This document shows, piece by piece, positions 43,069 to 59,088 of a stretch of DNA of 64,000 nt. This DNA is from Paucimonas lemoignei. Lineage in GTDB: Bacteria > Pseudomonadota > Gammaproteobacteria > Burkholderiales > Burkholderiaceae_D. The stretch is taken from contig NZ_SLZQ01000015.1 in assembly GCF_004342585.1 (NCBI RefSeq), positions 1 to 64,000 of the forward strand. The letters run 5' to 3'. The first letter of the stretch is position 1, and each line of letters starts with the position of its first letter. Made by a program: the position numbers and the translations under genes. The notes under the pieces were generated by a model, which did not search any database, was not told the DNA's origin, and saw only the letters and a list, made by a program, of their open reading frames with translations.

Positions 43069-43081
43069 GTGCCGTTCTCCC

Positions 43082-43803: not shown

Positions 43804-44748
43804 CTAGCGACGCGACGACAGGACAATGCCACAGACGATGAGCACGAAAGCAGCGCCATGGTACAGCTGCGGCAATTCACCGAGGATGGCAGAGGACATG
43901 AGCGCCGTAAAAAGCGGGATCAGGTTGGTGAAAAACGCTGCGATATTTGGACCTACCCGCGCCACGCCGACACTCCACAAGCCCAGTGCGATGATGGCTG
44001 GTGCGGTCGAGACATACAGCAAGCCCAGTGCAAGCGTCCAGCCCCAATGGAAATGCGTCTGTCCCAGCGTCCATTCGCCTGCGGCAAACACGGCTGACCA
44101 GGCCGCGCCAAACATGACTTGTGCCAGAATGGCGCTGCTCCAGTTCTGACGGATCGACGCCGGTTCGGTCGGACGCGCCAGCATCCAGCTATAGATCGAC
44201 CAAAGGATCGTGGCGACGATCATGATCGTATCGCCGAGCACCAGGTGCAGCGTCAGCAGGGCATGCAAGTCGCCGCGGCATAGCACGATGACGACGCCGA
44301 TGATTGACAGGAGCGCGCCGACGATCTGCTTGCCGGTGAAATGCACGCCGAAAAAAATGCGGCCGATCGCCATCATGAAGATGGGCATGCTGGCGCCGAC
44401 CAGCGTGACATTGATAGGCGCGGACGTATGCAGCGCCAGGTACAGCAAGCCATTGTAGAGGCTGGTGCCCAACAGGCCGAGCATGGCAAAGCGCTTCCAG
44501 TGCGGCCATAGACCGCTGTCACGGCGCAGTACCGTTCGTCCGAGCGGCAGCAAAATCACTAGTGCCACCAACCAGCGCACGAAGTTGATGATAAAAGGTG
44601 ATGCCAGATTGCTCAGCATACGTCCGGCAATGGCGTTGCCAGCCCATAGGAATGGCGGGGTGAGCAACATAAGTACCGTGGTGAAATTCAGGGGCTGATT
44701 CAACAGAAAACTCGTGAGGTAGGATTGACGTCCGCCGTGGACATGCAT
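43804..44748 (-). CDS. EamA/DMT family permease
   Basis: A 314-residue inner-membrane protein with ten hydrophobic helices in two homologous halves. Family signs are LMLLTPPFLWAGNAIAGRML in the first helix, RWLVALVILLPLGRTVL, the LVGASMPIFMMAIGRIFFG end of the first half, and the second-half equivalent NLIPLFTALMSSAILGE. Members export or import small metabolites and amino acids. The ATG at 44748 is used; a TTG at 44766 with aagg upstream is an alternative, and a shorter start at 44670 cannot be ruled out. Confidence 0.85.
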   Translation of the reverse strand: MHVHGGRQSYLTSFLLNQPLNFTTVLMLLTPPFLWAGNAIAGRMLSNLASPFIINFVRWLVALVILLPLGRTVLRRDSGLWPHWKRFAMLGLLGTSLYNGLLYLALHTSAPINVTLVGASMPIFMMAIGRIFFGVHFTGKQIVGALLSIIGVVIVLCRGDLHALLTLHLVLGDTIMIVATILWSIYSWMLARPTEPASIRQNWSSAILAQVMFGAAWSAVFAAGEWTLGQTHFHWGWTLALGLLYVSTAPAIIALGLWSVGVARVGPNIAAFFTNLIPLFTALMSSAILGELPQLYHGAAFVLIVCGIVLSSRR

Positions 44749-45005
44749 GAACGGACGAGGCTGCAAGGATACCTTATTTTGGCAAAGTCAGACTGCCACG
44801 AGTGCGTTGTTGTATGAATTATAGAATGGCAACGAAAGAAAAAAATCATATCGCCGTCGCTGCCAGGAGCTGAAGCCGGAGGTTCGTAGTCATAGCGATA
44901 GGCATGAGCAATCTGTCAATCCTCTGCCAATCATTAAGCAAGCCGTTACAATGCCCGGCATGACTTGACGCTTCGACCTGTATCGATTCATCCAAAACGA
45001 TCCGC

Positions 45006-45794
45006 ATGAAAATCCAGTTCGCGTCTGACCTGCATTACGAATTCCTCGAAAAGCAATTCCCCGGTTACCGCATCATCCAGCCGGCTGAAGCCGATGTGTT
45101 AGTGATCGCCGGCGATATTCATCACGGTCCCATGGCGATCGACACCTTCGCCGACTGGCCGGTGCCGGTGGTGTACGTGCATGGCAACCATGAGCTGTAT
45201 CGCCATGAGTACGGCGCGATGCTGAAGGCGCTGCGCGCCAGGGCACAGGGAAGCAACGTGCATTTCCTGGAGCGGGATGAGGTAGTCATCCAGGGCGTGC
45301 GATTTCTCGGCTGCTGCCTGTGGACCGATTACTGCCTGCCTCCCTACGAGATGGACTCGGCCATGCAGGCAGCTGAAGGCACATTGCCCGATCATCGCTT
45401 GATCAGATTCGGCGTGGATGTGTTTTCCGCGCGCGATGCACAGCACATTCATGCGCAATCGCGTCATTGGCTGGAGAACAAGCTTGCCGAGAGCTTTGCC
45501 GGTCCGACTGTCGTGGTCAGTCACCATGGTCCGCATCCGGAATCGGTGCATGCCCGTTTTGCCGGTTCAATCATCAATGCCGCCTTCGTCAGCGACTTGA
45601 CTCCACTGCTGGGACGTGCCCAGCTATGGATTCACGGCCACGTGCATGACAGCTTCGACTATGAAGTCGCCGGCACGCGCGTCGTCACCAATCCGCGCGG
45701 CTATGCCACCAACCGCCTGGCGGCGGCTTCGCCCGAACAACTGGTATGGGAAAATCCCGTCTTCGATTCGCGCCGAGTGGTTGAAGTCAGCTAG
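45006..45794 (+). CDS. Metallophosphoesterase
   Basis: A 262-residue calcineurin-like phosphoesterase with all metal motifs: QFASDLHYE (D-x-H), LVIAGDIHHG (GD), VYVHGNHELY (GNHE), VVSHHGPHPES, and LWIHGHVHDSFDYEVAGTRV (GHxH). Substrate could be a nucleotide, cyclic nucleotide or phosphoprotein. It stands alone between the permease and the LysR regulator. The start is the ATG at 45006, directly beginning MKIQFASDLHYE as in the family. Confidence 0.9.
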   Translation: MKIQFASDLHYEFLEKQFPGYRIIQPAEADVLVIAGDIHHGPMAIDTFADWPVPVVYVHGNHELYRHEYGAMLKALRARAQGSNVHFLERDEVVIQGVRFLGCCLWTDYCLPPYEMDSAMQAAEGTLPDHRLIRFGVDVFSARDAQHIHAQSRHWLENKLAESFAGPTVVVSHHGPHPESVHARFAGSIINAAFVSDLTPLLGRAQLWIHGHVHDSFDYEVAGTRVVTNPRGYATNRLAAASPEQLVWENPVFDSRRVVEVS

Positions 45795-45822
45795 CGCGTT
45801 TTACTCCGCCGTCACACAAAAT

Positions 45823-46728
45823 TCAAAGCCCGGCATGGCTATGCGATTTGCAGTACACCCGCGCCACATTCAAAAAATTATGCAGGATGGGCGACTGGTC
45901 TTCCTTGCGGTACAGGCAGCTCAGGTCCACCGTTGGCGCAGGCACCTTCTTGATGGGGCGGTAGACGACATTGGGTATCTGCAGTGCGGTAGCAGACTCC
46001 GGCACCAGGCAAATGCCGAAACCGCCGCCAACCAGAGCGACGCCGGTCACAGCATCAGCAACTTCCTGCGTCGCCTGCATGTGGAAGCCTTCGGCGAGGC
46101 ACAGTTCCATGACATAGTCGATGAAATTCGGCCGCGAACCGCTGGGGAATAGCACCACCGGATTGTTTGCCAGTGCGGAGAAGGCGATTTCCTTTTGCCG
46201 CGCCAGCGCATGGGTTTGATTCACGGCGACGTATAGCCGTTCATTCATCAAGACTTCCGCCGTAATGTCGGGCGTATCCCAGACCAGCCGGTTAAACCCT
46301 ACTGCCAGGGTATGATTTCGTAGCGCATCGATCTGCTCCTTCTTGCCCATGGTATGCAGCACGATTTTCACATCCGGATAAATGGTCCGATAACTCAGCA
46401 GCAGTCCCGGGATCAGGCTCAGGATACTGGAACCGAAGACACCGACATCGATGCGGCCGAGCTGGCCGGCCTCGGCGCGTTGGGTCCTCTCCGTAGTCTG
46501 TTCGATCAGCTCAAAAATATTACGCACGCCATCAAGAAACATGCGTCCGGCATCGGTCAATTCCATGCCTTTGGCGGTGCGCAGGAACAGCGTCGCGCCG
46601 ACGGTCTCTTCCAATAGCTGAATCTGACGCGTCAAGGGCGGTTGCGAGATATGCAGCCGCGCTGCGGCGCGCCCCATGTTCGATTCTTCGGCGACCGCCA
46701 TGAAATATTTAAGCTGACGAAAATCCAT
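45823..46728 (-). CDS. LysR-family regulator of the meta-cleavage operon
   Basis: A 301-residue LysR protein. The winged helix occupies residues 1-60 (MDFRQLKYFMAVAEESNMGR, RLHISQPPLTRQIQLLEETV), followed by the effector domain (IDVGVFGSSILSLIPGLLLS, NPVVLFPSGSRPNFIDYVME). These resemble BenM/CatM-type regulators of aromatic catabolism. The ATG at 46728 is preferred to 46758, because the 21-bp operator palindrome (46754-46774) overlaps the upstream choice. It diverges from the catabolic operon beginning at 46901, which it most likely activates. Confidence 0.9.
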   Translation of the reverse strand: MDFRQLKYFMAVAEESNMGRAAARLHISQPPLTRQIQLLEETVGATLFLRTAKGMELTDAGRMFLDGVRNIFELIEQTTERTQRAEAGQLGRIDVGVFGSSILSLIPGLLLSYRTIYPDVKIVLHTMGKKEQIDALRNHTLAVGFNRLVWDTPDITAEVLMNERLYVAVNQTHALARQKEIAFSALANNPVVLFPSGSRPNFIDYVMELCLAEGFHMQATQEVADAVTGVALVGGGFGICLVPESATALQIPNVVYRPIKKVPAPTVDLSCLYRKEDQSPILHNFLNVARVYCKSHSHAGL

Positions 46729-46753
46729 GATCTGGAAAGTCTCCGGAGAAACG

Positions 46754-46774
46754 CCCATACGATTTAGGTATGGG
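46754..46774. promoter_or_regulatory. LysR operator: perfect 21-bp palindrome
   Basis: CCCATAC-N7-GTATGGG (46754-46760 and 46768-46774), containing the canonical T-N11-A (T46758, A46770). It lies 26 bases upstream of the lysR start and 126 bases upstream of the catabolic operon, the usual place for a LysR recognition site. Confidence 0.85.
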
Positions 46775-46900
46775 ATTTAGGCTAATTTGGTATTGGAAAG
46801 TATTGCCTGTTGCCGCTAATTTACCACATACGCACTGACGCCGAATCTGGAATCGGCGCCAAAAGCGAACCAATTACAAGACGACTAGCGAGACAAAAAC

Positions 46901-47221
46901 ATGCAATTTTTAATCTTCCTGTACGACGCAACCGATGCCGGCGCACAAGAGCGCCGCGCCAAAATCCGCCCCGACCATCTCAAGCGTGCCGAGCACTACC
47001 AGCATGCGAACCACCTGTTGATTGGCGGCGCCTTGCTCAACGAGGCTGGCGATGTGATCGGCTCGGCCGCCGTCATCCAGTTCGAAACCCGCGCCGAGCT
47101 CGACGAATGGTTCAACACCGATCCTTACAAGATCGGCAACGTCTGGGCGCGCATGGAAGTGCACAACTTCCGCGTCGCCCCCCATTACAACATCAAGCCC
47201 ATCATCAAGGAGGCCCACTAA
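46901..47221 (+). CDS. YciI-like protein, first gene of the catabolic operon
   Basis: A 106-residue dimeric alpha-beta barrel protein of the YciI type: MQFLIFLYDATDAGAQERRA, IRPDHLKRAEHYQHANHLLI with the conserved R-P-x-H-L, GGALLNEAGDVIGSAAVIQF and the ending NTDPYKIGNVWARMEVHNFR with the D-P-Y motif. The His and Asp positions kept in active YciI relatives are present. The stop overlaps the cupin start (TAATG), so it is tightly coupled to it. Its reaction is unknown; a lactone, isomerase or dehydrochlorinase-like step is possible. Confidence 0.85.
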   Translation: MQFLIFLYDATDAGAQERRAKIRPDHLKRAEHYQHANHLLIGGALLNEAGDVIGSAAVIQFETRAELDEWFNTDPYKIGNVWARMEVHNFRVAPHYNIKPIIKEAH

Positions 47222-47904
47222 TGGCAATCAAGGAAAATCTCAAATTGCGCGTCGTGCATGATCAACTGGAAGCCGGCGCCAGCATTACCCTGGACCCGGC
47301 AATGCGCGTCGTCTATTGCCGTACCGGCAACGTGCGCATTATCGAAGGTGGCCGCCGCCGCATCCTCAGCGAAGACAATGCGCAGCTGGTGCAAACCGAG
47401 ACCACCATCGAAGCCGCCGTCGGCCCGGCCACCGTATGGCGCTGGGAACTGGTGCCGGTGGAATCCGACGATGCCGCCACGCTGGCGCACGGCGCCGGCG
47501 TCGTCAGCGAGAACAAGGGCGCGTACCCGTTGCCGCTGCCGGACGACGAACGCCAATTCTCGATCCGCTGCGACCGGGTCGCCTTCCCGCCAAGCGGCGA
47601 AGCGCTGACGCATATCCATGCCGCGCCGGGCGTGCGCTGCGTCCATACCGGCGAATTCTTCCACGATTCGCTCGGCAAGCAGTGGACCATCAAGCCGGGC
47701 GTAACCTGGCTGGAACGCGGACCGGAACCTGTGTACGCCAAGGTCTGGGACAAGGGCCCGGCCAATTTCATCCGCGTGATGGTTATCCCGAGCGCGTATT
47801 CCGGCAAATCGACGATCTCGTACGTCAAGCCTGAAGACGCGCAAAAGCCGAAGTCGCAGCAGTATTACCGCTACCTGGAAGAGGAAATCCAGCTGCCCGG
47901 CTAA
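47221..47904 (+). CDS. Cupin-domain protein, candidate pathway-entry enzyme
   Basis: A 227-residue protein with two cupin-like halves. The first (MRVVYCRTGNVRIIEGGRRR) lacks metal ligands. The second has ALTHIHAAPGVRCVHTGEFF, giving H-x-H plus a third histidine nine residues on, then GKQWTIKPGVTWLERGPEPV, where the histidine of the standard second cupin motif is replaced by Trp. A metal site with fewer or different ligands is therefore likely. No known dioxygenase family is recognised. It is translationally coupled to the YciI gene and lies just ahead of the importer and the lower meta-cleavage genes, so ring opening or hydrolysis of the substrate is the best guess. Confidence 0.75.
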   Translation: MAIKENLKLRVVHDQLEAGASITLDPAMRVVYCRTGNVRIIEGGRRRILSEDNAQLVQTETTIEAAVGPATVWRWELVPVESDDAATLAHGAGVVSENKGAYPLPLPDDERQFSIRCDRVAFPPSGEALTHIHAAPGVRCVHTGEFFHDSLGKQWTIKPGVTWLERGPEPVYAKVWDKGPANFIRVMVIPSAYSGKSTISYVKPEDAQKPKSQQYYRYLEEEIQLPG

Positions 47905-47968
47905 CGCCAGTATGGGAAGTAAAAATTTCAATTAAAAGGCCGCGGACACACGCGGCCTGGAGACAAGC

Positions 47969-48775
47969 ATGGTAGAGAATGTGGCACGGCTAACCCCGAC
48001 TCCCAGGATGACGCCATTCATTGAGGTGAGCGGCCTGGAGAAACGTTACGACACCCGTAACGGTCCGATCAATGCAATCGAAAAGGTCTCGTTCAGCGTC
48101 AGCAAGGGCGAGTTCATTTCCATAGTCGGCCCTTCCGGCTGCGGCAAGAGCACATTGATGAAAATGATCGGCAAGCTCTTGCAGCCGACCAGCGGCTCGA
48201 TCCGGTTCCACGGTTTGCCCGCCGGCGCCGACAGTCCCGATCTCGGCATGGTGTTCCAGGATGCGGTGCTGCTGCCATGGCGCACCGTGTTCCAGAACGT
48301 CTGTCTGCCGATCGAGGTCATGGGCCTGGAGCGCGCCAAGTACGAGCGGCGTGCCCGCGAGCTGATCGAGCTGGTCGGGCTCAAGGGGTTCGAGAACAAG
48401 TACCCGTCCGAGCTGTCCGGCGGCATGCAGCAGCGCACCTCGATCGCCCGCGCGCTGGTCAGCGATCCGTCGCTGTTGCTGATGGACGAGCCATTCGGTG
48501 CGCTCGATGCCTTGACGCGCGAAACCATGACCCAGGAACTGCAGCGCATCTGGATGGAGAGCAAGAAGACGGTGCTTTTCATTACCCACTCGATCCCCGA
48601 ATCGGTGCTGCTGTCGGACCGCGTGGTGGTGATGTCGGCCCGGCCGTCGAAGGTGCAGGAAATTATCGACATCGACTTGCCGCGTCCGCGCCAGCTGACC
48701 GATACCACTTCGGCGGCTTTCGGAAAATATGTTTCCCACATCCGCGGCCTGTTGTCCGCTACTACGGAGTTATAA
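47969..48775 (+). CDS. ABC importer ATPase (nitrate/taurine type)
   Basis: A 268-residue ATPase with Walker A GPSGCGKST (about 53-61), Q-loop MVFQDAVLLPW, signature LSGGMQQR, Walker B LLLMDEPFGALD, and H-loop FITHSI. The PWRTVFQNV block after the Q-loop is characteristic of the nitrate/sulfonate/taurine family (TauB/SsuB). It follows the cupin gene by 64 bases and directly precedes its permease (5 bases), so the three genes form one importer. Confidence 0.94.
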   Translation: MVENVARLTPTPRMTPFIEVSGLEKRYDTRNGPINAIEKVSFSVSKGEFISIVGPSGCGKSTLMKMIGKLLQPTSGSIRFHGLPAGADSPDLGMVFQDAVLLPWRTVFQNVCLPIEVMGLERAKYERRARELIELVGLKGFENKYPSELSGGMQQRTSIARALVSDPSLLLMDEPFGALDALTRETMTQELQRIWMESKKTVLFITHSIPESVLLSDRVVVMSARPSKVQEIIDIDLPRPRQLTDTTSAAFGKYVSHIRGLLSATTEL

Positions 48776-48780
48776 ACACC

Positions 48781-49599
48781 ATGAGCCAGGTCATATCAGC
48801 AACCATTACTCCTGTGCGCCGTCTGCCCCGTTTCGACACCGGCAGCGTACTTTCCGTCGTTGTGGCCGTGGTGCTGCTGGGCGGCTGGGAATACTGCGTC
48901 CGGGCCGGCGTTATCCCCGGCTACCTGCTGCCCTCGCCGTCCAAGGTCGTCATGCAGCTGTACGCCGACCTGATGCATGAAAGCGTGCGCGTTGACATCT
49001 ACTACACGCTGGCCGAAATCCTGCTGGGCTTTGCGCTGGCCACCGTGCTCGGCCTGCTGTTCGGCGCCGCGATCGCGCTGATCCCGATCGCCGACAAGAT
49101 CCTGTCGCCCTACATCACCTGCCTGCAGACGATTCCAAAACCGGCGATCGCGCCGCTGCTGATCATCTGGTTCGGCTTCGGCATCAGCTCCAAGGTCGTC
49201 ATCGTGGCGCTGATCGCTTTCTATCCGATCGTGGTGAATGCGGTGGTCGGCTTTCGCGGTTCTGACCCGCGCCAGATTCTGCTGATGCGCGTGATGAAAG
49301 CCTCGCGCTGGCAAATCTTCCGCATGGTGCAGTTGCCCAATGCGCTGCCTTACCTGATGGCCGGGCTGCAGATCGCCATGGTGTTTTCGGTGATCGGCGC
49401 AATCGTCGGCGAATTCCTCGGCGCTTCCCGTGGCTTGGGCGCGTTGATCATCCAGCGCCAGGCGGCAATGGATGTGGCGGGCGTGTTCTCGGTGCTGGTG
49501 GTGTTGTCGACGGTGGGCATCGTATTAAGCGTGATCATCAAGGCACTGTCCAAGAAATTGGTGTTCTGGGGGCCGGCAGAAGAAATTCGCGGCGTGTGA
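48781..49599 (+). CDS. ABC importer permease (nitrate/taurine type)
   Basis: A 272-residue inner-membrane protein with six hydrophobic helices and the EAA loop near VGFRGSDPRQILLMRVMKAS, followed by QIFRMVQLPNALPYLMAGLQ. The N-terminal LGGWEYCVRAGVIPGYLLPS with the LLPSPSKV motif is typical for TauC/SsuC relatives. It belongs with the ATPase upstream and the binding protein 41 bases downstream. Confidence 0.93.
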   Translation: MSQVISATITPVRRLPRFDTGSVLSVVVAVVLLGGWEYCVRAGVIPGYLLPSPSKVVMQLYADLMHESVRVDIYYTLAEILLGFALATVLGLLFGAAIALIPIADKILSPYITCLQTIPKPAIAPLLIIWFGFGISSKVVIVALIAFYPIVVNAVVGFRGSDPRQILLMRVMKASRWQIFRMVQLPNALPYLMAGLQIAMVFSVIGAIVGEFLGASRGLGALIIQRQAAMDVAGVFSVLVVLSTVGIVLSVIIKALSKKLVFWGPAEEIRGV

Positions 49600-49640
49600 C
49601 ATTGATTTGAACCTGATTCAAAACTAATAACGGAGACGAC

Positions 49641-50720
49641 ATGAACAAGATTCTCAATCGCAGCATCAAGAAAGTAACAGCCGCTTCGGTAGCTATCACG
49701 TTCGCTTTTGCAGCCGGCGCCGTGCAAGCCCAGACCAAGCTCACGGTGCAAGGCGGCGCGCCGGTGCCGACCTATACTCTGCTTGGCCTGTACGTCGGCC
49801 AGCAGCTCGGCTATTTCAAGGCCGAAGGAATCGACCTGGAAATTCGTAATACCGCTAACGCCTCGACCGCTGTGCAGCTGATGGCGTCCAATAATGCAGA
49901 CATTGCCCTGGCCACGGTCGAGCCGCTGCTGCTCGGTCAGGAAAATGGTGTCAAGGCCAAGGCATTCCTGCTAAACCACAAGACCCTGATGTACAACATT
50001 GCGGTGCCCAAGGGCTCAAACATCACGTCGCCGGCAAACCTCAAGGGCGTGAAGATCGGCGTCAGCAATCTCGGCAGCGCGTCGCTTACCGTGGCCAAAT
50101 CGATATTGCTGAGTGCAGGCGTCACGCCGACCGCCGATACCTTTGTGCCGGTCGGCGTGGGCGACCAGGCATTGACCGCGCTGCGCAGCGGCAAAGTGCA
50201 GGCACTGGCGATGTGGGATGTGATGTACGCGGCGATGGAGCGCAATGGCCAGCAGTTCACTTACTTCAACCATCCAACCCTTGGCACCTTCGGCAATCTG
50301 GCCTCGATGGCATCGGACGCCACCATCGCGACCAAGCAGAAAGCCCTGTGCGGTTATGGGCGGGCGCTGGCCAAGAGCTCATTGTTCGCCGCTGAGAACC
50401 CGGAAGCCGCCCTGCAATTGTATTGGGACTTCAATCCGGCTGCCCGTGTCCCAGCCAACAATCCCGAGGAAATCAAAAAGGCAGTCGCCGAATTGAAATA
50501 CATCGCTGATATCTTCAACGTAGGCTTTGGCCCCGGCGAAAAATATGGCGTGATCGATGAGGAAAAATTCAAGCAATACGCCGAGCTGCTGTACAAGGAT
50601 AAAGGGACACCGGAAAAAACCCCGGCCGTTTCCAGCGTGGCAACCTCGGCGCTGACGGCTTGCATCAATGAGTTCGACCGCGCAGCGGTGCGCAAGGCCG
50701 CTAAAGAGTGGAAAAAGTGA
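49641..50720 (+). CDS. ABC importer periplasmic binding protein (NMT1/TauA-like)
   Basis: A 359-residue exported binding protein. Signal peptide residues 1-30 ([20 protein letters not shown] then AQ). The mature protein shows [60 protein letters not shown] and the hinge [20 protein letters not shown], all as in the NMT1/SsuA-like family. Members bind sulfonates, nitrate, pyrimidine precursors or aromatic acids such as phthalate; within this operon an aromatic or heteroaromatic acid is likely. Confidence 0.92.
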
Positions 50721-50736
50721 TTGCCTGGAGAACCTT

Positions 50737-51657
50737 ATGAAAAAGATTAAATGCGCGCTGATCGGCTCCGGCAACATCGGCACCGATCTGATTTACAAGC
50801 TCAAGCGCAGCCCGCTGCTGGAGCCGGTGTGGATGGTCGGCATCGACGCCGAATCGGAAGGGCTCAAGCGGGCTCGCGAGATGGGCTTAAAAACCACCGC
50901 TGCCGGGATCGAGGGATTGCTGCCGCACGTGCAGGAAGACGGCATTCAGATCGCTTTCGACGCGACTTCGGCTTATGTGCACGCCGAGAACTCACGCAAG
51001 CTCAATGCGCTGGGCGTGCTGATGATCGACCTTACGCCAGCCGCCATTGGCCCGCTGTGTATCCCGCCAGTGAACCTGCGCGAACACGCCGGCAAAGGCG
51101 AAATGAACGTCAACATGATTTCCTGTGCCGGGCAGGCGACCATCCCGATGGTCTACGCAGTGTCCAGCATCCAATCCGTGAGCTACGGTGAAATCATCGC
51201 CAGCCTGGCCTCCCTGTCGATCGGCCCGGGAACACGCAAGAACCTCGACGAGTTCACCTATACCACCTCGAACGCTATCGAAAAAATCGGCGGCGCCAAG
51301 CTGGGCAAGGCCATGGCCATTATCAACCCGGCTGAGCCGCCGATGGTCATGCGGAACACGATCTACTGCGAAACCGATGAGCTGCCCGACCAGGAAGCCA
51401 TCACCAGGTCGGTGAAAGCCATGATCGCCGAAGTGCAGAAATATGTGCCGGGTTACCGGCTGGTGAACGGCCCCGTGTTCGACGGTCATCAGGTCTCGAT
51501 ATATCTGGAGGTGAAGGGCTTGGGAGATTTTCTGCCCGCCTATGCGGGCAACCTCGACATCATGACCGCCGCTGCGACCCGTACCGCTGAAATGTTTGCC
51601 GAAGAGATGAATGCCGGACGTTTCAAGGCCCAATCGAAAACAATGGAGACGGTATGA
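50737..51657 (+). CDS. mhpF: Acetaldehyde dehydrogenase (acylating)
   Basis: A 306-residue enzyme that oxidises acetaldehyde to acetyl-CoA. The Rossmann loop is [20 protein letters not shown], followed by [34 protein letters not shown] and the catalytic cysteine in [18 protein letters not shown]. Length and motifs match MhpF/BphJ/DmpF. Its stop overlaps the aldolase start (ATGATG), in keeping with the known channelling complex of the two enzymes. Confidence 0.95.
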
Positions 51658-52691
51658 TGTCCCTTAAAGGAAGAAAAGTCATGTTGCATGACATGTGCCT
51701 GCGCGACGGCATGCATGCAAAGCGTCATCAGATGACGCTGGACGAGATGGTGCGCGTCGCGACCGCGCTGGACGATGCCGGCGTGCCCCTGATTCAAGTC
51801 ACGCATGGCGATGGATTGGGCGGCTCATCGCTGAACTACGGCCGGTCACGTCACACCAATGAAGAATACCTGAACGCGGTCATCCCCAAACTCAAACGCG
51901 CCAAGGTATCCGTCTTGCTGGTGCCGGGCCTGGGTACGATGGACCAGTTGCGCTCGGCGCGCGAGTGTGGCGTGCATAGCGTTCATGTGGCAACCCACTG
52001 TACCGAAGCCGACGTCGCCGAGCAGCACATCGCCTACGCCCGCGGCATGGGGATGGACACCACTGGGTTCCTGATGATGTCGCATCTGAATTCGCCGGAA
52101 GGGTTGCTGAAGCAAGGCTTGCAGATGGAATCCTATGGCGCCAACTGCGTCTACGTGACCGACTCGGCCGGCTACATGCTGCCGGAAGACGTGCGCGCCC
52201 GCATCGGCCTGCTGCGCAATGCGCTGGATCCCAAGACCCAGTTGGGCTTCCACGGCCATCATAACCTCGGCATGGGAATCGCCAATTCCATCGCCGCCAT
52301 CGAAGCCGGCGCCAACCGCATCGACGGCTCGGTGGGCGGCCTTGGCGCCGGCGCCGGCAACACCCCGCTGGAAGTGTTTGCCGCAGTATGCGAACGCATG
52401 GGTATCCAGACCGGCGTCGACCTGTTCAAGATGATGGATGTGGCCGAAGACGTGATCCTGCCGCTGATGGACCAGCTGGTGCGGGTCGACCGCGAGTCGC
52501 TGACCATCGGTTACGCCGGCGTGTATTCGACCTTCCTGCTGTTCGCGCGCCGCGCTGCCGCGAAATACGGCGTGTCGGCACGTGAAATCCTGATCGAGCT
52601 CGGCAAGAAAAAGCTGATCGGCGGCCAGGAAGACATGATCGAAGACACCGCGATGACCATGGCCAAGGAACGCGGCCTGCTCCCGAGCTGA
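51654..52691 (+). CDS. mhpE: 4-hydroxy-2-oxovalerate aldolase
   Basis: A 345-residue class II aldolase that splits 4-hydroxy-2-oxovalerate into pyruvate and acetaldehyde. It has the catalytic [15 protein letters not shown] (R-D-G-x-H), the metal-binding [20 protein letters not shown], and [20 protein letters not shown], together with the C-terminal communication domain typical for BphI/DmpG. It forms a complex with the acylating dehydrogenase encoded immediately upstream. Confidence 0.95.
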
Positions 52692-52712
52692 ACGCTTTCA
52701 CAGGAACTGGCC

Positions 52713-53468
52713 ATGTCAATATTTAAAGAATTAGCAGTCGTTGTCGGCGCCACCGGATCATTCGGCACGGAGATCGTTGCATCCCTCACAGCCGCAGGGC
52801 TCGGCGTCATTGCCGTAGCGAGAACAGCAAGTTCGCTGGCATCGTTGCAGGACCGGTTTGCCAATCTGATTCCTTGCGCGGCCGACATCAGCGACGACAG
52901 CGCGATCGAGAAGATTCGCGCCACGCTCGACCGGCCGGTGCGGATGGTGGTGCACGGTCCGGGCGTGGCGGTCGCCGGCGGCATTCTGGCGGCTCCGACT
53001 GCGGCGGTAGTCGACTCGGTCAACATCAAGGTGGGCGGCATGTTGCGCCTGACACGGGCAGTCGATGACCGACTGCTGCCACATTCGCGGCTGGTCGCCA
53101 TTGGCGGCCATTATGGCCTGGAGCCGACGGCTTATGCGGCGGCGGCCGGAATTGCCAATGCCGCCCTGATCAACCTCATGCGCCAGTTAAGCCTGGCCTA
53201 CGGCGAACGCGGCGTGACGGCTCACCTGATTGCGCCGGGACCTGCCGATACCGAGCGCTTGCATCGCGTCGCAGCCGATCGTGCCGCCAATCGTGGCATC
53301 AGTGTCGAACAGGTGTTGACCGAGATGAAAGCGGAGTCGTCCATTAAGGCGTTCACCACGCCGAAGCAAGTCGCCTGGGCAGTGGCCATGCTGCTGGCGG
53401 AAGAGGCCGATGCCATGACCGGCGCGACCCTCATGCTCGATGCCGGACGCCGGCGCGGACTGCCTTGA
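52713..53468 (+). CDS. SDR-family protein with altered catalytic residues
   Basis: A 251-residue Rossmann protein: VVVGATGSFGTEIVASLTAA is the cofactor loop and ADISDDSAIEKIRA follows. The usual catalytic set is not kept. The Tyr of YAAAAGIANAALIN has Ala four residues on where Lys is normal, and the Ser normally about 13 residues before Tyr is replaced (LVAIGGHYGLEPTAY). The C-terminal ADAMTGATLMLDAGRRRG is an SDR ending. So it may not be a standard alcohol dehydrogenase; it could act on the pathway's semialdehyde or diol by another mechanism, or be a non-redox member. It is an integral gene of the operon. Confidence 0.8.
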   Translation: MSIFKELAVVVGATGSFGTEIVASLTAAGLGVIAVARTASSLASLQDRFANLIPCAADISDDSAIEKIRATLDRPVRMVVHGPGVAVAGGILAAPTAAVVDSVNIKVGGMLRLTRAVDDRLLPHSRLVAIGGHYGLEPTAYAAAAGIANAALINLMRQLSLAYGERGVTAHLIAPGPADTERLHRVAADRAANRGISVEQVLTEMKAESSIKAFTTPKQVAWAVAMLLAEEADAMTGATLMLDAGRRRGLP

Positions 53469-53492
53469 TCAGCTGAAAAACGGAGACCTCGC

Positions 53493-53912
53493 ATGCCAGT
53501 CGTTAACTTTCATATCGTCGAAGACAAATACACGCCAGGTCAACTGGAATGCCTGCTGCTGGAGTCGAGCAAACTTTATGCGGAAGTCCTGCAGTCGCCA
53601 ATTGAACGGGTGCGCGCTTTCATTACTCCACATAAACGCTCGCTCTTCGCCGTGGGAGGAAAAATGGTGGCGTACGGCCAAGCCGATGCACCCTATTTCA
53701 GCTTCATCGTGCTGGAAGGGCGCTCGCTTGAAGAACGCCACCGATTGATGGCCGGCTTCACCGAGCTGATCGTCAACATCCTGGGCGTCAAGCGTGACCT
53801 GGTGCGAGGCAGCTGTACGCCAGTCCATCCGGATAACTGGTGCATTGCCGGCACACCTGCCAGCGTGGTGCGCCTCGCTGAAATTCGGGCGCGCGAAGAG
53901 AACGCATCCTGA
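53493..53912 (+). CDS. Tautomerase-superfamily protein, double-length (cis-CaaD/MSAD-like)
   Basis: A 139-residue protein starting Met-Pro (MPVVNFHIVEDKYTPGQLEC), so Pro-1 would be the catalytic base after Met removal. It contains two beta-alpha-beta units (residues 1-60 and 65-125), as in the cis-3-chloroacrylic acid dehalogenase and malonate-semialdehyde decarboxylase families, rather than the 62-residue single unit of 4-oxalocrotonate tautomerase. The second unit has FSFIVLEGRSLEERHRLMAG and VKRDLVRGSCTPVHPDNWCI. In this operon tautomerisation of 2-hydroxymuconate is the likely job, although a dehalogenase-like or decarboxylase reaction is possible. Confidence 0.82.
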   Translation: MPVVNFHIVEDKYTPGQLECLLLESSKLYAEVLQSPIERVRAFITPHKRSLFAVGGKMVAYGQADAPYFSFIVLEGRSLEERHRLMAGFTELIVNILGVKRDLVRGSCTPVHPDNWCIAGTPASVVRLAEIRAREENAS

Positions 53913-53936
53913 GCCCGCATTTTCTTTTTCTTAATA

Positions 53937-54749
53937 ATGACTGCAAAGATCATGGATCCCAAAAAAATTGAACAGTACGGAGACGAGCTGTACACGGCCT
54001 TCCTGGGTCAGACCACGGTGGCGCCCTTGATTGAACGCGAACCGGACATCACGATCGACGACGCCTACAAGATCCAGCAGCGCATGGTGGATCGCCGGGT
54101 CGCCGCCGGCGAAAAAATCGTCGGCAAAAAAATCGGCGTCACCAGCAAGGCGGTGCAGGATTTTCTCGGCGTATTCCAGCCTGACTTCGGCCAGCTCACT
54201 TCGGGCATGATTTACCAGGAAGGCGACACCATCGACCTTGGCAAGTTGATCCAGCCAAAAGCGGAAGCCGAACTGGCATTCGTATTGAAAGAGGATTTGA
54301 AAGGCCCTGGCATTACCGCAATGGACGTGATTCGCGCGACCGACTATGTCGTGCCCTGCTTCGAGATTGTCGATTCGCGCATCAAGGACTGGAACATCAA
54401 GATTCAGGACACTATTGCGGACAATGCTTCTTGCGGCGTCTACGTTCTGGGGAAAACCAAAGGCGATCCGCGCGCACTGGATATCACCATGGCCGGCATG
54501 GTGCTGGAAAAAAATGGCGAACTGTTTTCCACCGGGGTCGGCGCCGCGGTGCAGGGGTCGCCTGCCAATGCGGTTGCATGGCTGGCCAATACGCTGGGCG
54601 CGCTGGGGATTCCATTCAAGGCGGGGGAAGTGATCCTCTCCGGTTCACAGTCGGCGCTGGTATCGGTCGTCGATGGCGATGAACTCGCATGCACAGTCGG
54701 CGGCCTCGGCAGCTGCCATGTCAAATTTGCAGGAAGGAGCGCGGCATGA
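53937..54749 (+). CDS. mhpD: 2-oxopent-4-enoate hydratase (MhpD family)
   Basis: A 270-residue member of the hydratase/decarboxylase family. It has TIDDAYKIQQRMVDRRVAAG, KIVGKKIGVTSKAVQDFLGV, PKAEAELAFVLKEDL with the metal-binding glutamates, FEIVDSRIKDWNIKIQDTIA and ADNASCGVYVLG. Family members add water to 2-hydroxypenta-2,4-dienoate or decarboxylate 4-oxalocrotonate; the NIKIQDTIADNAS block leans toward the hydratase. The stop overlaps the next, paralogous gene by four bases, and the two products commonly form a complex. Confidence 0.87.
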   Translation: MTAKIMDPKKIEQYGDELYTAFLGQTTVAPLIEREPDITIDDAYKIQQRMVDRRVAAGEKIVGKKIGVTSKAVQDFLGVFQPDFGQLTSGMIYQEGDTIDLGKLIQPKAEAELAFVLKEDLKGPGITAMDVIRATDYVVPCFEIVDSRIKDWNIKIQDTIADNASCGVYVLGKTKGDPRALDITMAGMVLEKNGELFSTGVGAAVQGSPANAVAWLANTLGALGIPFKAGEVILSGSQSALVSVVDGDELACTVGGLGSCHVKFAGRSAA

Positions 54750-55543
54750 ACGGCACCACATTATCTCGCGAAGAAGTCGTCCGTTTGACCGAGCGCGTCG
54801 AGGGCGCACAACTACGCGCCTATGAGATCCCCAAACTGACCGAAGAATATCCGGGCATGACCGTCGCCGATGGCTATGCGGTGCAAAAGGAATTGCGCCA
54901 GCGCTCGATTGCCCGCGGCAATCGCTTGATCGGCTGGAAGGTCGGTCTGACTTCGAAAGCCAAGATGGTCCAGATGGGCATTCATGAACCAAGCATCGGC
55001 TTTCTGATGAATGACATGGCTTGCCCTGAAAATTCGGCGATCGATATCTCCAAGCTGGTGCATCCGCGCGTCGAATGCGAAGTGGCTTTCGTGACGAAAA
55101 AGGCCTTGCAAGGACCGAACTGCACGAAAGAACAGGTGCTTGATGCGACTGACTTTGTATTGCCGGCGATTGAAGTTATCGACTCGCGTTTCAAGGCATT
55201 CAAGTTCGACCTGCCCAGCGTCATCGCCGATAACGGTTCCAGCGCGCGCGTGGTCAGTGGCGGCAGGGCGCGCTATCCGCAGGATGTCGATTTGCGCACG
55301 CTGGGCGCGGTGATGGAAAAGAATGGCGAGATCGTGTCGCTCGGGGCTTCCGCTGCGGTCCTCGGTCATCCGGCGGAAGCGATCGCCTGCCTTGTCAACA
55401 TCTTGTATACACAGGGCGAGACCCTGCCTGCAGGAAGTTTCGTGATGAGCGGCGGCATTACCGAAGCGATTCATGTGAAAGCCGGCGACAGCATCATCGC
55501 GCGCTTCCAAGACCTGGGCAGTGTCTCGGTGCGTTTTGTCTGA
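54746..55543 (+). CDS. dmpH: 4-oxalocrotonate decarboxylase
   Basis: A 265-residue paralogue of the preceding gene. It shows TVADGYAVQKELRQRSIARG, RLIGWKVGLTSKAKMVQMGI, EPSIGFLMNDMACPENSAID, HPRVECEVAFVTKKAL and FKFDLPSVIADNGSSARVVS. The MGIHEPSIGFL and VIADNGSSARVV elements resemble XylI/DmpH decarboxylases more than hydratases. It would convert 2-oxohex-3-enedioate to 2-oxopent-4-enoate. ATG 54746 is chosen because it overlaps the preceding stop (ATGA). Confidence 0.87.
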   Translation: MNGTTLSREEVVRLTERVEGAQLRAYEIPKLTEEYPGMTVADGYAVQKELRQRSIARGNRLIGWKVGLTSKAKMVQMGIHEPSIGFLMNDMACPENSAIDISKLVHPRVECEVAFVTKKALQGPNCTKEQVLDATDFVLPAIEVIDSRFKAFKFDLPSVIADNGSSARVVSGGRARYPQDVDLRTLGAVMEKNGEIVSLGASAAVLGHPAEAIACLVNILYTQGETLPAGSFVMSGGITEAIHVKAGDSIIARFQDLGSVSVRFV

Positions 55544-55555
55544 AGGACAGTCGCC

Positions 55556-56278
55556 ATGAAAGTCTTGATCGTCTTCGCGCATAACGAGGAAAAATCCTTC
55601 AACACCGCCATGAAAAACCTGGCGGTGGAGCGGTTGCTTGGCAATGGCCATGAAGTGATCGTCTCCGACCTGTATGCGATGAAGTTCAAGGCGGTCGCGG
55701 ATGGCGACGATTTTCTTGAGCGCGCCAACCCTGACTACCTGGTATATGCCATGGAACAGCGCGTCGCCTATAAAAACGGCACCCTGGCGCCGGACATCAT
55801 GGCGGAACTGGAGAAGGTGAAGTGGGCAGACCTGATTATCTTCAACTTCCCGATTTACTGGTACTCGATGCCCGCGATCATGAAAGGTTGGGTGGATCGC
55901 GTGCTGGTGTCCGGCTACTGCTATGGCGGCATGCGGTTTTATGACCGCGGCGGACTAGCCGGAAAGAAGGCCTTGGTGGCCACCAGCCTGGGCGGGCAGC
56001 CGCATATGTTCGAAAAGGATGGCATCCACGGCGAGCTTGAACTGCTGCTCAAGCCTATTTTGCAGGGGACGCTGGCCTATACGGGGATGGCGGTGTTGCC
56101 GCCATTCGTGGCATTTCATGTGCCTTATATTTCTGCCGAAGCGCGTGCTGCATATCTGGAAGACTATGCAGCGCGGCTGGACGCGCTGGAGTCTACCGAG
56201 GTAATGCGGTTTCCCAGCATGGATGACTTCGACGAAAAGTTGCATCCCAGGGTGGACAAATCTGCTTTGGCTATTTGA
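55556..56278 (+). CDS. NAD(P)H:quinone oxidoreductase, flavodoxin-like (NQO/KefF type)
   Basis: A 240-residue flavoprotein: MKVLIVFAHNEEKSFNTAMK (phosphate loop), EVIVSDLYAMKFKAVADGDD, WADLIIFNFPIYWYSMPAIM with KGWVDRVLVSGYCYGG (the F-P-x-x-W-x-x-x-P-A block and FMN/quinone pocket), and KKALVATSLGGQPHMFEKDG. Such enzymes reduce quinones by two electrons. Its presence at the end of a meta-cleavage operon suggests that a quinone or nitro intermediate appears, or that it protects against catechol autoxidation. It begins 12 bases after the decarboxylase gene. Confidence 0.88.
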   Translation: MKVLIVFAHNEEKSFNTAMKNLAVERLLGNGHEVIVSDLYAMKFKAVADGDDFLERANPDYLVYAMEQRVAYKNGTLAPDIMAELEKVKWADLIIFNFPIYWYSMPAIMKGWVDRVLVSGYCYGGMRFYDRGGLAGKKALVATSLGGQPHMFEKDGIHGELELLLKPILQGTLAYTGMAVLPPFVAFHVPYISAEARAAYLEDYAARLDALESTEVMRFPSMDDFDEKLHPRVDKSALAI

Positions 56279-56285
56279 CACACGC

Positions 56286-56304
56286 TCCCTCTGTTAAAGA
56301 GGGA
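56286..56304 (+). terminator. Weak hairpin at the end of the catabolic operon
   Basis: A perfect seven-base stem tccctct (56286-56292) and agaggga (56298-56304) with a GTTAA loop, 7 bases after the last stop. There is no T-run, so it may be a processing hairpin or factor-dependent end. Confidence 0.4.
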
Positions 56305-56348
56305 ACCCGGTAGTCAAACGGATATCAAGAAGCGTCAGCGAATGGCGT

Positions 56349-56819
56349 TTACAGGAAGCGGTCGAGAATCCTGCGGCTATGCTTGTCCAGCGCCTGCATA
56401 TCGCGCACCAGGAATTGAATCCCGTGGCTGTCGGAAATCAGCAAGCCATTGCTGCCGACGCGACGGATATCCTCTTCGCCCCGCAAAACAAAGGAAGTGG
56501 CGCCGCGATCGGTGACGACGCTCCAGGTGCAAGGCGTGGCAAAGCTGGTGACGGACTCGATGCGCGAAACTTCCGGCATGAATTCGCGCCCGGCCAATTC
56601 TTCCTCGATCAGGCTGCGGATCGCCGGCGTCAGGTCGGATAAACGGTCGATCCACGCCACTTCGGCGCCATCGCCATTGACCAGCGCGATACCGTCATTG
56701 GGCGCCTGGATCGGGAAGGCGCGCACCGGCACCACGCCTTCATGAATGTTGCCATCTTCGCTGGTCAGGAGCAGGCGGCCGAACGGGTTGCGAGTCAAGG
56801 TAAAACGGGTGGTAGCCAT
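56349..56819 (-). CDS. Cyanophycin-associated DUF1854 protein
   Basis: A 156-residue protein of the DUF1854 family, which occurs beside cyanophycin genes and a companion ABC protein. Visible blocks are FTLTRNPFGRLLLTSEDGNI, GVVPVRAFPIQAPNDGIALV, EVAWIDRLSDLTPAIRSLIE and CTWSVVTDRGATSFVLRGEE. The ATG at 56819 follows the ABC gene stop by only 4 bases, with gggaga inside the end of that gene, so the two are one operon. Its role is not known; it may bind cyanophycin or its building blocks, or regulate the ABC protein. Confidence 0.87.
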   Translation of the reverse strand: MATTRFTLTRNPFGRLLLTSEDGNIHEGVVPVRAFPIQAPNDGIALVNGDGAEVAWIDRLSDLTPAIRSLIEEELAGREFMPEVSRIESVTSFATPCTWSVVTDRGATSFVLRGEEDIRRVGSNGLLISDSHGIQFLVRDMQALDKHSRRILDRFL

Positions 56820-56823
56820 GGTC

Positions 56824-59088
56824 TTATTCTCCCTGCAAGGCCATTTCGGCGGCATTCCGGGCTTGCGCCTGGTAGAGGCGATAGTAAGCCCCTTCCATTT
56901 CCATCAATTCATCGTGCGGCCCTTCCTCGACCACCTGGCCGCGGTCCAGCACGATCAGGCGATCGGCGCGCTGCAGGGTCGACAAGCGGTGGGCAATCGC
57001 AATCGTGGTGCGGCCCTGCACCAGGTTATCGAGCGCCTTCTGGATTTCCTTTTCGGTTTCCGAGTCCACCGACGAGGTCGCTTCATCGAGGATCAGGATG
57101 CGCGGGTTGATCAAGAGCGCGCGGGCAATCGAAATGCGCTGGCGCTCGCCGCCCGACAAGCCCTGGCCGCGCTCGCCCACCATCGAGTCGTAACCTTGCG
57201 GCAGGCGCAGGATGAATTCATGCGCATGCGCGGCGCGCGCCGCCGCCATGATTTCTTCGCGGGTGGCATCCGGTTTTCCATAGGCGATGTTTTCCGCGAT
57301 GGTGCCAAAGAACAGGAAGGGTTCCTGCAACACCAGGCCGATATTGCGGCGATAGTCCGACAAGCCATAATTGCGGATATCCACGCCATCGACGCGGATG
57401 GCGCCTTCGGCGACATCGTAGAAGCGGCAGATGAGGTTGACCAGCGTACTCTTGCCCGAGCCGCTGTGGCCGACCAGGCCCACCATCTCGCCCGGCTTGA
57501 TGCTCAAATTGATGCCGCGGTTGACGGCGCGGTTGCCATAGCGGAAACCGACATCGACGATCTCGATGCCGCCCTTGACGTTCTTCCATGGCACCGGGTT
57601 GGCCGGCTCCGGCACGCTGGAGACGTGATCCAGGATATCGAAGATGCGCTTGGCCGCCGAAGCCGATTTCTGCGTCACCGAGACGATGCGGCTCATCGAA
57701 TCCAGCCGGCCGTAGAAGCGGCTGATATAGGCAATAAAAGCAGTCAGCACGCCCACCGTGATATCGCCCTTCGACACTTGCCAGATACCGAAGCCCCACA
57801 CCACCAGCAAGCCCAGCTCGGTCAACAGCGACACCGTCGGTGAAAACAGCGACCAGGTTTTGTTCAGCCTGTCATTGACGGCGAGGTTATGTTTATTCGC
57901 TTCGCGGAAGCGGTTGGCTTCGCGCTGTTCCTGGGCGAAGGCTTTCACCACGCGCACGCCGGGAATGGTATCGGCCAAGACATTGGTCACCTCGCCCCAG
58001 ACGCGATCGATCTTTTCAAACCCGGTGCGCAGCTTGTCGCGCACCACGTGGATCATCCAGGCGATGATCGGCAAGGGCAGCAAGGTCACGAGCGCCAGCC
58101 AGGGGTTGATCGAAAACAGGATCGCCGCCGTCATGGTCAGCATCAGCACATCGGTGGCGAAATCCAGCAAATGCAGCGACAGAAAGACGCAGATGCGGTC
58201 ACTTTCGCTGCCGATGCGCGAAATCAGGTCGCCGGTACGCTTGCCGCCGAAGTATTCCAGCGACATTCTTAATAAATGTTCGTAGGTCGTGGTGCGCAAG
58301 TCGGCGCCGATGCGCTCGGACACCAGCGCCAATATATATGTCTTGGCCCACGACAGTCCCCAGGCCATCAGTGCCGCGCCCAACAGGCCAGCCAGATACA
58401 AGCCGACCAGGTGAGGATCGATCTGCTTGCCGTTCTGGTAAGGAATCAGCACGTTATCCATCAGCGGCATGGTGAGATAAGGCGGCACCATGGAAGCTGC
58501 CGTGCCCAATAGCGTCAGGAAAAAGCCAAGCAGTAGCTGACCCTTGTAGGGATGGGCAAAGCGCCACAGCCGCAACAGGGTCCAGGTCGACGGCGGCGTG
58601 TGAATCACGCGGGTGCACACCGGGCAGACATCCTGGTCCGGGTCGAGCGGCGCCTTGCAGCTTGGGCACGCATTGCCATCGGGTTCGGCCACCGGCTCGC
58701 CAGAGACGTGGCTCGCCTGCAACAAATTGAATTGGTCAATCAGCCGGATGGCTTGCAGGTTTTGGCCAAGGGTGAAGCGCCAGGATGCCAGCAAGCCGGT
58801 AGCGTCGACCAATTCCAGATGGCCGACGCCGGCATGATCGTGATGATGCAATGCCAAGCCATTACGAAAATGCCAGTTTTTCCACTCGGTTTCGCCCGGC
58901 GCCAAGGTCAGCAGGCGCTGCTCGGTCAAGGCCAGCAAGCCTTTTTTGAAGTGAAGGCGCTGGTCGAGGTCAACCTGAACCCATGCGACAACGTTTTCTC
59001 CTGGAGCAAGCTGCGTTGCCAGAGGGTTTTGCCATTCGGCTGGAAGGTCGTTGCGGGAAAGATCGGTTACAGGAGATGGGCTTGTCAT
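56824..59088 (-). CDS. Cyanophycin-associated ABC transporter (fused permease-ATPase, exporter type)
   Basis: A 754-residue protein. Residues 1-165 are an unusual extra domain: a beta-rich part (ATQLAPGENVVAWVQVDLDQ, then LLALTEQRLLTLAPGE, PH/GRAM-like) and a zinc ribbon (CPSCKAPLDPDQDVCPVCTR). Residues about 175-470 hold six membrane helices of an MsbA-type exporter. The ATPase (about 500-745) has Walker A GHSGSGKST, signature LSGGERQRIS, Walker B ILILDEATSSVD. It diverges from cphA' and precedes the DUF1854 gene. What it moves is unknown; export or import of Asp-Arg building blocks, or polymer contact, are possibilities. Confidence 0.9.
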   Translation of the reverse strand: MTSPSPVTDLSRNDLPAEWQNPLATQLAPGENVVAWVQVDLDQRLHFKKGLLALTEQRLLTLAPGETEWKNWHFRNGLALHHHDHAGVGHLELVDATGLLASWRFTLGQNLQAIRLIDQFNLLQASHVSGEPVAEPDGNACPSCKAPLDPDQDVCPVCTRVIHTPPSTWTLLRLWRFAHPYKGQLLLGFFLTLLGTAASMVPPYLTMPLMDNVLIPYQNGKQIDPHLVGLYLAGLLGAALMAWGLSWAKTYILALVSERIGADLRTTTYEHLLRMSLEYFGGKRTGDLISRIGSESDRICVFLSLHLLDFATDVLMLTMTAAILFSINPWLALVTLLPLPIIAWMIHVVRDKLRTGFEKIDRVWGEVTNVLADTIPGVRVVKAFAQEQREANRFREANKHNLAVNDRLNKTWSLFSPTVSLLTELGLLVVWGFGIWQVSKGDITVGVLTAFIAYISRFYGRLDSMSRIVSVTQKSASAAKRIFDILDHVSSVPEPANPVPWKNVKGGIEIVDVGFRYGNRAVNRGINLSIKPGEMVGLVGHSGSGKSTLVNLICRFYDVAEGAIRVDGVDIRNYGLSDYRRNIGLVLQEPFLFFGTIAENIAYGKPDATREEIMAAARAAHAHEFILRLPQGYDSMVGERGQGLSGGERQRISIARALLINPRILILDEATSSVDSETEKEIQKALDNLVQGRTTIAIAHRLSTLQRADRLIVLDRGQVVEEGPHDELMEMEGAYYRLYQAQARNAAEMALQGE

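Follow-up and report, generated by a model that had tools for sequence, protein, structure and literature searches.

A bicupin gene near the head of a lower meta-cleavage operon that has no catechol 2,3-dioxygenase gene in Paucimonas lemoignei

We analysed a catabolic operon in a stretch of 64,000 nucleotides from Paucimonas lemoignei (NCBI RefSeq assembly GCF_004342585.1, contig NZ_SLZQ01000015.1, positions 1 to 64,000), below called the window. The operon comprises twelve genes on the plus strand (46901-56278) and is accompanied by a divergent LysR gene, the whole locus spanning 45823-56278. The first-pass annotation of this DNA had described an importer and a complete route from a tautomerase to an acylating dehydrogenase, with neither an extradiol dioxygenase nor a semialdehyde dehydrogenase. 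Indeed, all genes that it named are present on the plus strand at 46901-56278, the LysR gene falling just beyond this range. The importer is an NMT1/THI5-type ATP-binding cassette (ABC) system, and profile scans found no extradiol dioxygenase or semialdehyde dehydrogenase in the operon. The genes, including one for a member of the short-chain dehydrogenase/reductase (SDR) family, are the following.

45823-46758, minus strand: LysR-type regulator, AlsR/HcaR/BenM/CatM-like (PF03466, PF00126), divergent
46901-47221, plus strand: YciI-family protein, 106 amino acids (aa) (PF03795, E 2.4e-14)
47221-47904, plus strand: bicupin, 227 aa (no Pfam or NCBIfam match; AlphaFold2 model, Foldseek matches to bicupins, conserved residues)
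47969-48775, plus strand: ABC importer ATPase of the nitrate/taurine/sulfonate type (PF00005; SaoA, NtrCD and TauB models under cut-off)
48781-49599, plus strand: ABC importer permease (named from its open reading frame and position, without a family-library scan; 93% identity in the congener)
49641-50720, plus strand: ABC importer substrate-binding protein, NMT1/THI5 type (PF09084, E 2e-32; best solved relative 3qsl)
50737-51657, plus strand: acetaldehyde dehydrogenase (acetylating), DmpF type (TIGR03215, 451.8 bits, cut-off 282.25)
51654-52691, plus strand: 4-hydroxy-2-oxovalerate aldolase, DmpG type (TIGR03217, 552 bits, cut-off 286)
52713-53468, plus strand: degenerate SDR without the triad Ser or Lys (PF13561; alignment)
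53493-53912, plus strand: fused 4-oxalocrotonate tautomerase, 139 aa, Pro-2 kept (PF01361 over cut-off; PDB relatives; alignment)
53937-54749, plus strand: 2-oxopent-4-enoate hydratase, DmpE type (TIGR03220, 446 bits, cut-off 408.8)
54746-55543, plus strand: 4-oxalocrotonate (2-oxo-3-hexenedioate) decarboxylase (4-OD), DmpH type (TIGR03218, 411.5 bits, cut-off 350.55)
55556-56278, plus strand: NQO1/NQO2-like flavodoxin-fold quinone reductase (PF02525, E 5.3e-50; 1qrd, E 2.7e-53)

The decarboxylase, hydratase, aldolase and acetylating dehydrogenase all exceed the NCBI cut-offs and belong to the 4-oxalocrotonate branch at the equivalog level. The tautomerase is slightly under the cut-off of TIGR00013 (51.2 bits versus 56.9); its Pro2 is invariant in eight aligned sequences, solved tautomerases are among its relatives, and it is a member of the fused type. 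The similarity of the quinone reductase to NQO1/NQO2 (1qrd) spans residues 2-223 and places it in that family. The only solved relative of the YciI protein at E 0.01 is HI0828 (1mwq), and the AlsR, HcaR, BenM and CatM models of NCBIfam all match the LysR regulator under their cut-offs. Several genes overlap: the stop codon of yciI and the start codon of the cupin gene share TAATG, and overlaps are also seen between the dehydrogenase and aldolase genes and between the hydratase and decarboxylase genes.

All 13 genes are kept in the same order in the congener G004. The ratio of nonsynonymous to synonymous substitution rates (dN/dS) between the two genomes is 0.02-0.20 for every one of them, with 0.059 for the LysR gene, 0.071 for yciI, 0.106 for the cupin gene and 0.099 for the SDR gene. 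Four blocks of the window (41513-57238) align to the G004 locus L012 at 76-86% identity, and synteny extends into the flanks, interrupted by one additional stretch in G004. Since both operon and flanks are syntenic in the congener, a recent insertion confined to the window's genome was ruled out. Judged by these comparisons of sequence, the operon is functional and under selection.

Meta-cleavage as described starts with a catechol dioxygenase. The idea, taken up from the first-pass annotation, that this pathway is entered at 2-hydroxymuconate or 4-oxalocrotonate without catechol 2,3-dioxygenase (C23O) and 2-hydroxymuconic semialdehyde dehydrogenase (HMSD) was checked against the whole genome. 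Seven genomes, including that of the window (G000), were searched with the C23O and HMSD profiles TIGR03211 and TIGR03216. Both cut-offs are passed in four genomes (G003, G005, G449, G124) and neither in G000, G004 and G002. The window's genome has no TIGR03211 match at E 1e-5, and six of its aldehyde dehydrogenases match TIGR03216 with a top score of 367.5 bits, far under the cut-off of 693.25, whereas the controls score 883-918 bits. In the congener G004, TIGR03211 finds a single weak match (33.8 bits, cut-off 320). The profile of 3-hydroxyanthranilate dioxygenase (3-HAO) has no match in the window's genome, and a kynurenine-type upper pathway was rejected on this ground. The locus thus has neither the extradiol catechol dioxygenase nor the HMSD of a catechol meta operon, and no unlinked C23O, 3-HAO or HMSD over cut-off was found in the genome. 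For the kinds of enzymes searched, these genome-wide negatives support the proposed point of entry.

The genome encodes other ring-cleavage candidates. One LigB-family protein, unlinked to the operon, scores best with the model of 4,5-DOPA dioxygenase (209.5 bits, cut-off 233). Seven PF00903 matches sit in open frames of 142-191 aa; two-domain extradiol enzymes are usually longer than that. A gene similar to catechol 1,2-dioxygenase (CatA; 378.9 bits, cut-off 392) adjoins a gene resembling, by eye, muconate cycloisomerase, and for this reason catechol probably takes the ortho route in this genome. A second intradiol-type protein of 235 aa is also encoded.

Close relatives of the four core enzymes lie in ordinary meta operons. 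Their identity is 72-85% to operons that contain both C23O and HMSD, namely L120 of the congener G003 and L109 from another family. The L120 operon holds phenol hydroxylase, C23O and HMSD, and the identity is 82% for the hydratase, 72% for the decarboxylase, 80% for the dehydrogenase and 85% for the aldolase; a search of L120 for the SDR gave no match. The genes in L109, L110 and L111 follow the order aldolase, C23O, SDR, tautomerase. In the window the gap between the aldolase and SDR genes is 21 bp, and the same slot holds the dioxygenase in these three relatives. The similarity of the core to operons with C23O and HMSD, together with the shared SDR and tautomerase, plainly indicates that the core of the window operon descends from an ordinary catechol meta operon.

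The window's SDR shares 58.6-71.2% identity with its counterparts on four plasmids, of Stutzerimonas, Hydrogenophaga, Sphaerotilus and Sphingopyxis. The counterpart gene adjoins dmpG in the first three and an annotated C23O gene in Sphingopyxis, and the Sphaerotilus plasmid carries C23O and HMSD in the same gene run. None of eight aligned SDRs has the triad Lys or a Ser at the triad position, although L102 has a Ser one column further on; the L102 protein has lost the Tyr as well, and the Ser-Tyr-Lys triad of classical SDRs is not found. This degenerate subfamily recurs beside C23O or genes of its pathway in Proteobacteria and Rhodococcus, and the SDR-tautomerase pair is present in Rhodococcus too. 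The first-pass annotation had correctly noted the missing Ser and Lys. However, the role of a substitute enzyme that it gave to the SDR was rejected, because the same degenerate SDR adjoins C23O, HMSD or dmpG elsewhere: it is an ordinary part of meta operons, where degeneracy is normal. By its distribution the fused tautomerase is likewise an ordinary meta-operon component and no replacement. The unusual section of the operon is its head, formed by YciI, the bicupin and the ABC importer.

One possibility is that this is a meta operon minus its entry genes, fed by unlinked broad enzymes such as CatA acting on pyrogallol-like substrates, the DODA-type protein or generic aldehyde dehydrogenases, with the cupin and YciI as passengers. 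The plain catechol-meta origin of the core and the presence in the genome of the CatA-like gene, the second intradiol-type gene and generic aldehyde dehydrogenases agree with this. However, with a gap of only 21 bp, no dioxygenase remnant lies between the aldolase and the SDR, the dN/dS values of yciI and the cupin gene are low for passengers, and the cupin family is paired with the lower pathway in other lineages (see below). We consider this explanation very unlikely.

The bicupin has no Pfam or NCBIfam match (residues 9-227 scanned), which places it in an unassigned family and leaves it outside the profiles of the cupin ring-cleavage dioxygenases of the gentisate, salicylate and 3-hydroxyanthranilate type. 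Its confident AlphaFold2 model (pLDDT 94) is matched by Foldseek to double cupins, with 7-17% identity in the rows listed; BacB, DUF861, oxalate decarboxylase, quercetinase and salicylate 1,2-dioxygenase share this double fold. In a fold search BacB (3h7y) matched with VIA Z 14.0, rmsd 2.8 and 159 aligned residues. Seed globulins score as high as BacB, and no function can be read from the fold matches.

A genome scan found 96 relatives of the cupin, of which 80 were kept as loci. Conservation was analysed in alignments of 58 and 47 of the 82 cupins (window, congener and 80 loci), those dropped being mostly near-copies and short stretches. In the alignment of 47, 23 columns are invariant, including R116, D118, H131, H133, W163, E165, R185, D206, Q213 and Y215; Gly137 and Trp163 are invariant in both alignments. 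By the register of the cupin motif, set without a solved structure, Gly137 stands at the usual position of the metal-binding Glu and Trp163 at that of the second-motif His. In this register the canonical site (His-x-His, Glu, His) is reduced to His131 and His133, so that a metal site would need H131, H133 and perhaps E165. This agrees with the first-pass description of a bicupin with a non-standard metal set.

Among 99 other relatives searched, the cupin has a match in three (G004, 90% identity; G061, 40%; G087, 34%). No plasmid-borne cupin was found at 1e-5 in 72,556 plasmid records. The nearest cupins, in L015 and L016 (45-46% identity), occur with an FAH-family gene, a RidA-like gene and a branched-chain-type ABC importer, all named by eye. 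A distant relative in G087 (L011/L014, 27% in the alignment) adjoins genes that by eye resemble those of a TRAP transporter, uronate dehydrogenase and tartronate semialdehyde reductase. A thiamine-diphosphate-type enzyme, again named by eye, is encoded in the same stretch as the cupin in 16 of 83 loci (for example, L017, L021, L030 and L057), sometimes with overlapping genes.

The cupin could be an oxygen-dependent ring cleaver of a trihydroxybenzene (pyrogallol or a precursor acid), the NQO1-like enzyme keeping the oxidisable phenol reduced. No semialdehyde dehydrogenase would then be needed, because intradiol cleavage of a trihydroxybenzene yields 2-hydroxymuconate, or its lactone 2-pyrone-6-carboxylate, directly. 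The fold resembles those of the bicupin dioxygenases quercetinase and salicylate 1,2-dioxygenase (about 10% identity), and the quinone reductase encoded in the operon would suit a readily oxidised phenol, which speaks for this explanation. On the other hand, by the same register the invariant Gly137 and Trp163 stand where the canonical site has its metal Glu and its second-motif His. Moreover, a hydroxylase, demethylase or decarboxylase from which a trihydroxybenzene could arise is missing from the operon, and the cupin family occurs also in contexts that look non-aromatic by eye. On balance this function is quite unlikely.

The surroundings of the cupin family were compared by BLAST against the 80 loci, some of which are short stretches. 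In 31 of them, below called symporter loci, the cupin gene adjoins a symporter gene that shares 60% identity or more with its L043 counterpart, and all 31 have an IclR match. L094, with a symporter 36% identical, was excluded; its genome has no hydratase/decarboxylase-like pair. The L043 symporter is nearest to the aromatic acid:H+ symporter model, under its cut-off (236 versus 419 bits), with sialate symporter models close.

Hydratase and/or 4-OD matches occur in the same stretch in 15 of the 31 symporter loci (L068 is cut by a contig end and L071 has no separate hydratase match). Nine of the 15 have matches for all five functions (L034, L043, L047, L048, L049, L080, L084, L090, L091), the match of 4-oxalocrotonate tautomerase (4-OT) type being weak (30-35% over 54-56 aa). 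The 4-OD equivalog cut-off is exceeded in L043 (379.4 bits) and L065 (415.6 bits). Three C23O queries had no match in any of the 80 loci. HMSD matches occur in 11 of the 80 (27-49% identity), among the 15 only in L064. LigB-type matches were observed in L027, L035 and L048 (39-52%), and HpaD-like ones in L050 (27%) and L061.

The genomes of the other 16 symporter loci have hydratase and 4-OD genes elsewhere: in three a 4-OD is over the cut-off, and in 13 there is an adjacent pair of hydratase and decarboxylase-like genes, joined by a LysR gene in 11 of the 13. For the two of these decarboxylase-like genes that were scanned (L160, L162), and also for that of L061, TIGR03218 is the best model (212-231 bits); the partner genes have hydratase models as their top matches. 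Pandoraea, Variovorax and an Enterobacterales bin carry such LysR-hydratase-decarboxylase-like operons (L160-L163), whose transporters differ by eye; these stretches of 14-20 kb each contain no C23O or HMSD match, and three of the four have a weak 4-OT-type match. Two Pigmentiphaga stretches (L159, L164) contain an HMSD-like gene (61%) as well as a gene that resembles 3-HAO by eye. Outside the symporter clade, L061 combines the cupin with hydratase, aldolase and dehydrogenase genes and a 4-OD-like gene (39%), a TRAP importer (by eye) and an HpaD-like extradiol protein (161.9 bits, cut-off 321.4).

In a tree of 58 cupins, 13 of them labelled as occurring with 4-OD, the window and its congener group with L015 and L016 (99*), far from the symporter clade. 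The label requires seven changes, five of them forced by starred branches.

The cell could also take up 2-hydroxymuconate, 4-oxalocrotonate or a close isomer directly, by cross-feeding from meta-cleavage bacteria. The tautomerase would then be the entry enzyme, and the cupin and YciI would do no more than repair or isomerise faulty tautomers or lactones. A lower pathway with an importer and without an upstream enzyme of known kind is what this predicts, and in the nine symporter loci a 4-OT-type match accompanies the hydratase, decarboxylase, aldolase and dehydrogenase. L043 also encodes a porin of the DcaP family (PF19577; DcaP-type matches in ten loci), a family of dicarboxylate porins. However, the cupin family is paired with the lower pathway in two distant branches of the tree, and the cupin keeps its symporter and IclR even where other pathway genes lie elsewhere. 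It therefore fits better as the first dedicated enzyme than as a repair enzyme, and we regard direct import as rather unlikely.

The operon resembles the catechol/phenol meta pathways of the dmp/xyl/aph type in its tautomerase, decarboxylase, hydratase, aldolase and acylating dehydrogenase, and L109 and the plasmid meta operons also in its SDR and fused tautomerase. It differs from the dmp/xyl/aph type in having no C23O and HMSD and in the addition of YciI, the bicupin, the NMT1-type ABC importer and the NQO1-like reductase. The symporter-bicupin-IclR loci of Lysobacteraceae, Herbaspirillum and Xylophilus share the cupin family and the lower-pathway enzymes, with no C23O match. However, they have a major facilitator superfamily symporter instead of the ABC system and IclR instead of LysR, no match to YciI, NQO or the fused tautomerase, and enzymes only about 44-61% identical.

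Thus the operon may be a functional descendant of a catechol meta operon in which the section with C23O and HMSD is absent and a YciI-bicupin-ABC head stands instead, the bicupin feeding an imported acid into the pathway. We hold this to be about evenly balanced between right and wrong. The decarboxylase and tautomerase have a use only where 2-hydroxymuconate or 4-oxalocrotonate arises; as the operon has neither dioxygenase nor dehydrogenase for making it, its simplest origin is an imported acid that is one step removed. A small organic acid would enter through the ABC system, and one or two steps catalysed by the bicupin, perhaps together with YciI, would turn this acid into 2-hydroxymuconate or 4-oxalocrotonate, from which the tautomerase, decarboxylase, hydratase, aldolase and dehydrogenase would yield pyruvate and acetyl-CoA. 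The first-pass annotation had also cast YciI and the quinone reductase as stand-ins for the entry enzymes, but nothing in our analysis points to ring opening by either.

The bicupin reaction may be non-oxygenative: the enzyme would hydrolyse or isomerise a dicarboxylate that is pseudo-aromatic or unsaturated, for example 2-pyrone-6-carboxylate or an isomer of 2-hydroxymuconate. In our view this is more likely than oxygen-dependent ring cleavage, because the operon encodes no aromatic oxygenase and the cupin family also occurs with gene sets that look non-aromatic by eye. Candidate substrates would be 2-pyrone-6-carboxylate, isomeric hydroxymuconates and products derived from pyrogallol. PcaHG is reported to cleave pyrogallol to 2-pyrone-6-carboxylate (PMC6628648). 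A partial analogy is found in riboflavin catabolism by LumW, LumY and LumX, where a pyrone cleavage product is hydrolysed and LumY, a cupin-annotated dienedioate hydratase, acts after the pyrone hydrolase and before the aldolase (PMC12746152). LumY is a protein of 16 kDa compared with the 227-aa bicupin, and the pyrone is made there by the catechol dioxygenase LumE.

A broader generalisation is that the bicupin family constitutes a widespread new entry, making 2-hydroxymuconate or 4-oxalocrotonate from an imported acid of plants or microbes, and was joined, probably more than once, to a lower pathway without dioxygenase and dehydrogenase. This we advance tentatively, with somewhat less than even confidence. 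The comparison of gene order that the first-pass annotation had proposed as a check ties relatives of the cupin to the lower pathway elsewhere. However, 63 of the 80 family loci, some of them short stretches, have no hydratase or 4-OD match. Several further points weigh against our explanation. The tree cannot separate several gains from one gain followed by losses. In the 13 genomes with unlinked pairs the 4-OD-like gene is under the 4-OD cut-off, and the recurrence was counted in cupin genomes alone. YciI has no match in the 82 cupin loci except that of the congener. A LigB-family match is present in all 11 cupin genomes checked (172-254 bits in G104, G106 and G107), and G104 has a TIGR03211 match under the cut-off (169.7 bits); in favour of our explanation, no TIGR03211 match at 1e-6 was found in six Lysobacteraceae-type genomes (G100-G103, G107, G108). 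Finally, in the window's genome the DODA-type LigB protein and the six aldehyde dehydrogenases below cut-off could act off-operon.

From the 63 loci without a hydratase or 4-OD match it follows that a ring-opening dioxygenase dedicated to the 4-oxalocrotonate pathway is too simple a description of the cupin. Because of these loci and the 16 with a thiamine-diphosphate-type enzyme, the family appears to carry out a single type of chemistry on different acids, the lower meta pathway being one use.

The second half of meta-cleavage, without its dioxygenase and with the same cupin family, is thus found in loci of several bacterial families, from which we conclude that an environmental acid is probably being used by a new catabolic route. 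In literature searches, chiefly of open-access papers, we recognised no description of such an operon. Naming the substrate of the cupin would assign a whole protein family, and the cupin could supply the enzyme that feeds trihydroxyphenols or pyrones into known metabolism.

Beside the operon, at 56349-61565 of the window, lies a cyanophycin locus. It encodes members of cyanophycin-associated families, a DUF1854 protein (237.5 bits, cut-off 150) and an ABC transporter (1424.6 bits, cut-off 880). Its 720-aa gene product is over the cut-off of the synthetase subfamily model (989.7 versus 877) and under that of the equivalog model (678.6 versus 850), these models having 862-871 positions. On the other side, at 41251-43161 on the minus strand, a gene encodes a 636-aa protein that by eye resembles a secreted hydrolase and for which NCBIfam gave no match at 1e-10.

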